Shown here: in pieces, positions 15,145-17,937 of the stretch | How positions within the stretch are numbered: the stretch's first letter is position 1 | Layout: every line of letters begins with the position of its first letter | From: Candidatus Bathyarchaeota archaeon | GTDB taxonomy: Archaea > Thermoproteota > Bathyarchaeia > Bathyarchaeales > Bathycorpusculaceae | DNA: 57,267 bases | Reading direction: 5' to 3' | Assembly (NCBI GenBank): GCA_029907545.1 | Contig: JARYLR010000007.1 | Coordinates: forward strand, 1-57,267 | Position numbers and translations under genes: made by a program | The notes under the pieces: model-generated | The model's database searches: none | What the model was told of the DNA's origin: nothing | What the model saw: only the letters and a program-made list of their open reading frames with translations

Positions 15145-15222
15145 TGGTGGACGGGGCGGGATTTGAACCCGCGGCCTCCACGATGCCAACGTGGCGATCA
15201 TACCAGTCTGATCTACCCGCCC
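15145..15222 (-). tRNA. tRNA-Ala (anticodon GGC)
   Basis: The minus strand folds as a complete cloverleaf. The acceptor stem is GGGCGGG/CCCGTCC, the D stem GATC/GATC, and the anticodon arm CCACG-TTGGCAT-CGTGG with anticodon GGC. The T arm is GCGGG-TTCAAAT-CCCGC. The acceptor contains the G3:U70 pair that marks alanine tRNAs, confirming identity independently of the anticodon. The discriminator is A and CCA appears to be encoded (15145-15147). No intron is present. It reads codon GCC, and GCU by wobble. Confidence 0.95.
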
Positions 15223-16994: not shown

Positions 16995-17552
16995 ATGACC
17001 AAAAAGCCACCGTCCAAGAATGAAGCCCTTGAGGCATTAGACTTCATAATCAATGTTCTCAAGGATCACGAGAAGGACTTGGACAGGCTGATCAACGAGC
17101 TTGGCACGATAACTGAGAAACTTGGCGACACCGGCGAATTCAGCGGCAAGATCGAGAAAGTTGAGGACAGGCTGGCGACGCTGCAGAACGAAATTGCCAA
17201 TCTAATCACGTATCTCTCAGTTCCCCATGAGTCAGCACAAACGATGCCTATGCCGTCAACTTCTATTCAAAGAGGAGAGGCACATGAGCCTCGGGAATCG
17301 AGAGGACCTCCTGTTATCTTGAGGTGCAAGCAGTGGGAGGATTTTCAGGCGTTGGCCTACCAGGCACAGACGTTATCCTTTTTGTATAGGGAGGCTGAGA
17401 AGACTTTTCAGGCTGATGCTTTGAAGAACAATCAGATTATAACTTACAGTGGGGAGCTTCCGAAATATACGTCGTTATTGAGGGTTTGGTTGGCGAAGCA
17501 GCTGGATGTGCCTGAGAAGAAGGTTTTGGAAGGTATATTGGCTATAGGTTGA
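16995..17552 (+). CDS. Coiled-coil protein of unknown function
   Basis: The 185-aa soluble protein has a helical, heptad-rich N-terminal half (about 8-75; FIINVLKDHEKDLDRLINEL and KIEKVEDRLATLQNEIANL). A Pro/Ser-rich linker (about 76-105) follows, then a compact C-terminal domain (106-185) with LRCKQWEDFQALAYQAQTL and LLRVWLAKQLDVPEKKVLEG. I recognise no family. The architecture suggests an oligomeric or scaffold protein. It is well transcribed by its own promoter and followed by the candidate RNA at 17622 and a second small helical protein. Confidence 0.75.
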   Translation: MTKKPPSKNEALEALDFIINVLKDHEKDLDRLINELGTITEKLGDTGEFSGKIEKVEDRLATLQNEIANLITYLSVPHESAQTMPMPSTSIQRGEAHEPRESRGPPVILRCKQWEDFQALAYQAQTLSFLYREAEKTFQADALKNNQIITYSGELPKYTSLLRVWLAKQLDVPEKKVLEGILAIG

Positions 17553-17589
17553 GCGTTGTTTTGTTGGTGTTTTTTGTTATTCAGTAACG

Positions 17590-17599
17590 TTTTTATATC
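17590..17599 (+). promoter_or_regulatory. TATA box of the candidate structured RNA
   Basis: TTTTTATATC predicts a transcript start near 17620-17625, about 10 nt before the first stem of the structured element. Confidence 0.5.
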
Positions 17600-17621
17600 T
17601 CTATGGTGTCTTAAGTCTTAA

Positions 17622-17760
17622 TAGATATGCAGCGAGGGCTGAGGTTGAAGGCAAGCCACAGACAACCAAACTTTTCTTCCGTTTTCGAAGCCTTCTCCTT
17701 TCTCCTCGATGACGGAAACCTGCTCTGTGGCTAGCCAAAAGGCGATGAGTGCCCTCGTTT
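17622..17760 (+). ncRNA. Candidate structured RNA or long 5' leader
   Basis: About 135 nt with no protein frame fold as a rod from complementary blocks. The closing stem is AGCGAGGGC (17631-17639) with GCCCTCGTT (17751-17759, one G-U). The next is GGC-A-AGCCACAGA (17650-17662) with TCTGTGGCT-A-GCC (17724-17736), 12 pairs around one A-A mismatch. The third is TTCCGT (17677-17682) with ACGGAA (17712-17717). A TATA box precedes it at the right distance. It does not match 5S, SRP, RNase P or tRNA as far as I can tell. It could be a free RNA or the leader of the 48-aa gene at 17791. Confidence 0.55.
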
Positions 17761-17790: not shown

Positions 17791-17937
17791 ATGAGCGAAA
17801 AACAGCAACCAGCTAAAAAGATCATGGAAGAGTTTCAAAGATTCGAAAAGGCAATGGAGGAACTGAAGGTTCTGAAGCTGATGTCAGAGGATCTGAAGAG
17901 TTTTAGAAGGATGATAAGCGTCAAGAAGTTTGACTAG
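17791..17937 (+). CDS. Small helical protein, 48 aa
   Basis: ATG 17791 opens a 48-residue, Lys/Glu-rich, entirely helical peptide (KKIMEEFQRFEKAMEELKVL, KLMSEDLKSFRRMI). It begins about 30 nt after the closing stem of the candidate RNA. A longer frame from 17749 would run through that stem and is less likely. No family is recognised. The amphipathic heptads suggest a coiled coil. Whether it is translated is uncertain. Confidence 0.45.
   Translation: MSEKQQPAKKIMEEFQRFEKAMEELKVLKLMSEDLKSFRRMISVKKFD

Follow-up and report, generated by a model that had tools for sequence, protein, structure and literature searches.

The window, as we call the whole stretch of 57,267 nucleotides analysed here, is a contig of a 1.46 Mb archaeal metagenome-assembled genome (Candidatus Bathyarchaeota archaeon). 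A first-pass annotation, made from sequence alone, had pointed to a structured RNA in it: a rod of about 130 nt with three stacked helices of 9, 12 and 6 pairs, a TATA box at the right spacing, no protein frame, no likeness to the common stable RNAs, and an end about 30 nt before a gene for 48 amino acids. Compensatory changes in the stems of homologues and an Rfam search were named as checks. Is this a genuine RNA, is it a free molecule or a regulatory leader, and what could it do? The features of the locus, with the rod named RNA-A, are as follows.

16995-17552, plus strand: up185, a protein gene; helical N-terminus and small alpha/beta domain
17582-17597, plus strand: promoter of RNA-A, BRE-like CAGTAACG followed by TATA box TTTTTATA (from the sequence; kept in homologues)
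17610-17620, plus strand: start-proximal element CTTAAGTCTTA, conserved in homologues
17632-17639, plus strand: stem P1, 5' side, pairing with 17751-17758 (fold; covariation, 8/8 pairs of helix 1 changed on both sides)
17641-17652, plus strand: GAGGUUGAAGGC in the 5' arm, conserved, in part complementary to the loop of RNA-A itself
17677-17683, plus strand: stem P4, 5' side, pairing with 17711-17717 (fold; covariation)
17685-17688, plus strand: stem P5, UCGA, 5' side, pairing with 17706-17709 and closing the loop (fold; covariation)
17689-17705, plus strand: antisense loop AGCCUUCUCCUUUCUCC, 17 nt, nearly invariant, complement of RNA-B
17743-17748, plus strand: conserved C(G/A)AUGA in the 3' arm, adjoining an internal loop (comparison of homologues)
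17751-17758, plus strand: stem P1, 3' side (fold; covariation)
17791-17937, plus strand: dn48, 48 aa, basic at the C-terminus; immediately follows RNA-A in about 60% of loci

The predicted rod held, at 127 nt (17632-17758, plus strand), and matches the covariance model described below with 112.8 bits. Its fold energy is -48.8 kcal/mol versus a shuffle mean of -38.2 (z = -2.80), a stability equalled by 2 of 200 shuffles. The stems are P1 (8-9 bp), P2/P3 (about 3 + 9-11 bp), P4 (7 bp) and P5 (4 bp), which encloses the 17-nt loop; the proposed helices are thus roughly right, P5 and its loop having gone unlisted. The distance to the 48-aa gene was correct as well, dn48 starting about 32 nt behind the rod. 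The TATA box, at 17590-17597 and downstream of CAGTAACG, is spaced as claimed, and both it and the CTTAAGTCTTA element behind it are conserved among RNA-A homologues. From this spacing we infer a transcription start near 17620, about the end of CTTAAGTCTTA. No protein frame runs through the region in homologues, also as claimed: rod length varies between 116 and 138 nt, and the phase of the loop, counted from the 5' arm, is evenly distributed (19/19/20 over 58 rods), which argues that the rod is non-coding. An alternative fold that uses GAGGUUGAAGGC is about 10 kcal/mol weaker than the rod; we infer that this segment might act as a switch or make a contact, no more than a possibility.

RNA-A is a genuine structured RNA family, as shown by computation; that it is transcribed is inferred. 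A DNA search of 60 related genomes found it in most genomes of the window's family (f1 among the unnamed families f1-f9 of our genome search). A covariance model built from 14 sequences detected it in 62 of 201 sampled Bathyarchaeia genomes, nearly always as a single copy; 53 of these genomes belong to the window's family and nine to three other families of the order. In family f6, a search with filters off placed it directly behind up185. An exact search for 19 bases across the loop in 84,980 species genomes returned 66 stretches, all but four of them labelled Bathyarchaeota or related archaea; the four bacterial stretches are not RNA-A. The homologues that carry an organism name are nearly all from Candidatus Bathyarchaeota.

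The covariance model was adopted because plain RNAalifold on a sequence alignment misaligned the variable stems, giving a 12-pair structure without double changes. Across the 65 aligned matches, both sides of 33 of the 35 pairs have changed without loss of pairing (297 cells), and 90.1% of cells are paired. None of 500 shuffles reached the observed covariation values. An alignment made with a covariance model leans to that model; the shuffled controls and the structures slid along the alignment were nevertheless far lower. Folded one by one, the homologues mostly gave the same rod from quite different stem sequences. The check for compensatory changes was therefore strongly passed.

Rfam 15 yielded no family at the locus at either gathering or relaxed thresholds, the single match on the rod being sR39 with 11.5 bits versus a gathering score of 50. 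SRP RNA and RNase P RNA are ruled out as identities; both were found above cut-off elsewhere in the same genome. The claim of novelty with respect to the common stable RNAs thus held. Among C/D box features, the C-like C(G/A)AUGA is conserved whereas the CUGA of the other strand is not, and Rfam gave no match; no dedicated C/D search was made. A tRNA/tmRNA search of the window returned a tRNA-Ala (GGC) on the minus strand at 15145-15222 alone, the sole tRNA gene found there.

The loop AGCCUUCUCCUUUCUCC, closed by UCGA/UCGA, hardly varies while the stems change freely. The sequences compared here had been gathered by exact loop match; in the model-based search and in the distant families, changes to the loop were small too. 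Because the loop is fixed while the stems vary, we suspected a partner in trans. A pattern search revealed a second locus with a near-perfect reverse complement of the loop in many genomes, and a control pattern gave almost none. This locus, RNA-B, is single-copy and has its own promoter; in the genome of the window it lies outside the window, at contig C6:8570-8588. RNA-B loci share the promoter GAYATATGCC ... ACAGCAACGTTTTATAAA, and the segment GGGAGAAAGGAGAAGGCUUC follows about 30-35 nt behind the TATA box, often with a T-rich stretch after it.

The model of RNA-B was limited to the part upstream of the complementary segment, and the match between the two RNAs is therefore not circular. It identified one strong locus in each of 23 family genomes (E <= 1.7e-10, next best 8e-5). 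In all five RNA-B loci outside model building, 14-17 of 17 pairs with the loop could be formed downstream. In 22 genomes, the RNA-B site and the loop can pair at 15-17 of their 17 positions. Nine substitutions have occurred in the 13-nt core of the site, each of them tolerated as a G-U wobble and none disrupting a pair; the chance of this is about 0.004 if transitions are taken as equally likely per core site and relatedness is ignored. Family f6 shows a double change in two genomes: two C to U changes in the loop are met by two G to A changes in RNA-B, so that A17-B1 and A4-B14 turn from C-G to U-A on both RNAs. The f6 RNA-B is recognised by flanks homologous to those of f7, although the two genomes are sisters of one genus and the search pattern for the locus was derived from the f6 loop. 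Among 36 genomes of f1, 23 have both RNAs, seven have RNA-A without detectable RNA-B, none has RNA-B alone and six have neither. The complementarity and co-variation of RNA-A loop and RNA-B are shown in silico only.

Three further observations concern these loci. Predicted folds of RNA-B conceal much of its pairing site. The RNA-B loci of f6 and f7 (L347, L354, L357, L359, L360, L370) carry an extra hairpin behind, ending in a (C/T)(A/G)ATGA-like sequence that resembles the C(A/G)AUGA of the RNA-A 3' arm. In genome G038, contig C4 (L044), a second RNA-A lies about 3 kb from the intact one and has the same altered loop; we rejected these as an A-B pair, since both are RNA-A, one of them truncated.

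The mRNA targets are inferred. In most genomes, a gene for a membrane protein of 39-41 aa adjoins RNA-B and is divergent from it. The protein family is single-span (e.g. MFEEIASDSVQMLILLFWITLAFVIIWGVTWARSSKKAK), with the conserved leader GCATTTCGGTTTTGGAAACTTTGCTTTTAGC (L031, L033, L248 and other RNA-B loci); Pfam and NCBIfam gave no match, and sequence search no family. The start regions of these genes pair with the loop at a median of -14.9 kcal/mol versus -7.2 in 358 control starts (Mann-Whitney p ~1e-6, uncorrected for relatedness; GGAG is common near starts). In the genome of the window this pairing is ordinary, at -9.7 kcal/mol, with 25% of controls as good. Near-complete loop matches occur in a few other start regions. 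At L118, L119 and L122, the gene of a small basic protein (MKLFSRKRKARKKWRSKA...) has a near-complete match to the loop complement, GGAGAAAGGAGAAGG, before its ATG. Control of the translation of such genes by RNA-A is likely, though unproven.

The loop is also found in viruses, which is shown by computation. In IMG/VR, eight contigs carry it on hairpins whose stems are unlike those of the cellular rods and unrelated between virus groups as well. The RNA-A model gave E below 0.001 for five of the eight and 0.0096 for one; the hairpins at L212 and L215 were identified by loop and fold. Most lie between structural genes, and the genes around several of the loops encode terminase, portal, major head, tail tube and tail proteins. 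A ninth viral contig contains an RNA-B locus together with the membrane-protein gene. Tailed viruses of Bathyarchaeia are known (PMC10848311), and we infer from gene content that the loop-carrying contigs belong to tailed viruses, while Bathyarchaeia hosts remain unconfirmed. Among further viral matches, two degenerate ones and all eight that fitted a wobble pattern of RNA-B were rejected as chance or one unrelated element. Annotated phages gave no relevant match.

A candidate protein is offered by up185, which directly precedes RNA-A in 47 of 52 loci. Most families of the order have it. It adjoins RNA-A in f1, f2 and f4, and two f7 genomes carry it near RNA-A in a different orientation. Its N-terminus is coiled-coil-like. 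The C-terminal domain, predicted with a pLDDT of 91.7, is nearest in fold to ribosomal eL38 (Z up to 6.1, rmsd 2.1 over 52 residues), and its likeness to SRP9/14 reaches a Z of about 5 with a Foldseek E of 4e-3. Both eL38 and SRP9/14 bind RNA. However, Z values below 8 can mean merely a common arrangement of the fold, and sequence and profile searches for up185 found no family and no match to SRP9/14 or eL38. As an RNA-A-binding protein, up185 is a possible lead, not a finding. The first-pass annotation had recorded neither this linked upstream gene nor the antisense loop, RNA-B or the viral copies.

The reading that we prefer, with moderate confidence, is that RNA-A is a trans-acting antisense RNA with a fixed loop and a dedicated partner. 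RNA-A would be a free RNA, structured and non-coding, about 130-140 nt long and made from its own promoter, its stiff rod displaying a fixed, pyrimidine-rich loop of 17 nt for base pairing in trans. RNA-B would be a second small RNA with a conserved promoter of its own, pairing with this loop through a purine-rich segment near its 5' end. RNA-A would most likely be the regulator, its CUCC-containing loop covering Shine-Dalgarno-like GGAG segments, such as that of the small membrane-protein gene which many genomes carry divergently to RNA-B; RNA-B may inactivate RNA-A, or both may be cleared together. The product of up185 may be the protein of an RNA-A ribonucleoprotein, and the viral loop copies may interfere with or exploit the circuit. 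Two things expected of a trans-acting small RNA are met: it appears to be an independent gene (conserved TATA box; loci without dn48, half of these with a T-run), and it has conserved complementarity, in silico only, to an RNA of another locus. Transcription, the direction of control, mRNA targets and protein binding are inferred, and there are no expression data for either RNA. A bolder version, which we regard as possible, is a two-RNA circuit of one archaeal order, comprising an RNA-A/up185 ribonucleoprotein and control by RNA-B, that tailed viruses would have captured repeatedly and, with the loop set on stems of viral origin, used to override host control.

The alternative that survives best, though still unlikely, is that RNA-A is a 5' leader controlling dn48 and the genes behind it, in which case RNA-B would bind the leader loop and RNA-A would sense RNA-B. 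RNA-A precedes dn48 in 32 of 52 loci (tblastn), and in most f1 loci the distance from rod to dn48 (22-37 nt) is near constant, without a terminator between; RNA-A of f1, about 30 nt before dn48, has no T-run terminator. In the window's own lineage the two may therefore share a transcript, which we consider possible. The C-terminus of dn48 is of the basic DLKSFRKMIKLKKYD type, and the protein, which is conserved, has no family match. Against the leader, about 16 of 43 loci keep the rod without dn48, and in several of them the next gene is convergent. A T-run stands behind the rod in 8 of the 16 loci without dn48 versus 3 of the 27 with it. A leader in cis should always have the same gene behind it, which these loci rule out, and the viral copies precede unrelated genes. 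Of the two options left by the first-pass annotation, a free RNA thus fits better than a leader alone, co-transcription with dn48 remaining possible in the lineage of the window.

A second alternative, very unlikely in our judgement, is that the loop serves chiefly to bind a protein. RNA-A and the rods of the viruses would then titrate an RNA-binding protein of the host, with the match to RNA-B being secondary. The loop barely varies, as such a site might, and the domain of the linked up185 is nearest to RNA-binding folds, merely at Z 5-6. However, RNA-B has the reverse complement and not the same motif, at a fixed place behind a conserved promoter, and its changes are wobble-keeping and compensatory. 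That the shared 17-19 bp are the DNA site of a transcription factor in both genes can be all but dismissed: a short sequence that occurs at two or more places in a genome might serve as an operator, but the conserved block coincides exactly with a hairpin loop in RNA-A and in several unrelated viral rods, and in RNA-B it lies behind the expected start and drifts in a wobble-compatible manner. Pairing of the loop with rRNA, as an anti-Shine-Dalgarno decoy or a modification guide, has CUCC elements and one 16S segment pairing at 15 of 17 positions in its favour but is likewise practically excluded, since the best 16S match (16/17, near the chance maximum) is in a genome without found RNA-A, relatives with RNA-A do no better than one genome without it (own-genome rRNA was searched for and not found, so that the 16S comparison rests on relatives), and no snoRNA family matched.

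Trans-acting RNA regulation in archaea is poorly understood. RNA-A is a well-supported family from a lineage that is abundant but uncultured, and compensatory mutation would put its predicted partner to a direct test. The existence of viral copies suggests that the circuit is targeted or used by viruses, and up185 is a candidate protein. The literature searched contained no paper on small or antisense RNAs of Bathyarchaeota and no description of an RNA-sponge pair in archaea. RNA-A is new as a family, but its mode of action, which is inferred, resembles that of known base-pairing small RNAs. The closest are sRNA41 (PMC5867862) and sRNA162 (PMC3510493) of Methanosarcina mazei, trans-acting intergenic archaeal RNAs that mask ribosome-binding sites. 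Like them, RNA-A is intergenic, would act by base pairing and has an anti-Shine-Dalgarno-like loop; unlike them, it belongs to another lineage, combines an unchanging loop with a rod whose stems vary freely, and has viral copies and a dedicated partner RNA, which has a conserved promoter of its own. A resemblance to SRP Alu RNA with SRP9/14 is confined to the fold of the up185 C-terminal domain, near SRP9/14 and eL38 at Z 5-6; these values are below 8, there is no sequence match, and RNA-A is not SRP RNA. In bacteria, small RNAs paired with sponges are exemplified by RoxS of B. subtilis and its sponge (PMC8216469) and by a Caulobacter sponge (PMC12559287). RNA-A and RNA-B are likewise small RNAs with a short complementary seed, one possibly removing the other, but they are archaeal, the partner is single-copy with a deeply conserved promoter, a conserved protein gene is linked, and a sponge role is not shown. 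Antisense pairs of the RNAI/RNAII type use loop recognition and are made from opposite strands of one locus; the hairpin loop of RNA-A would similarly recognise a complementary RNA, whereas RNA-A and RNA-B lie at separate loci and would act in trans.
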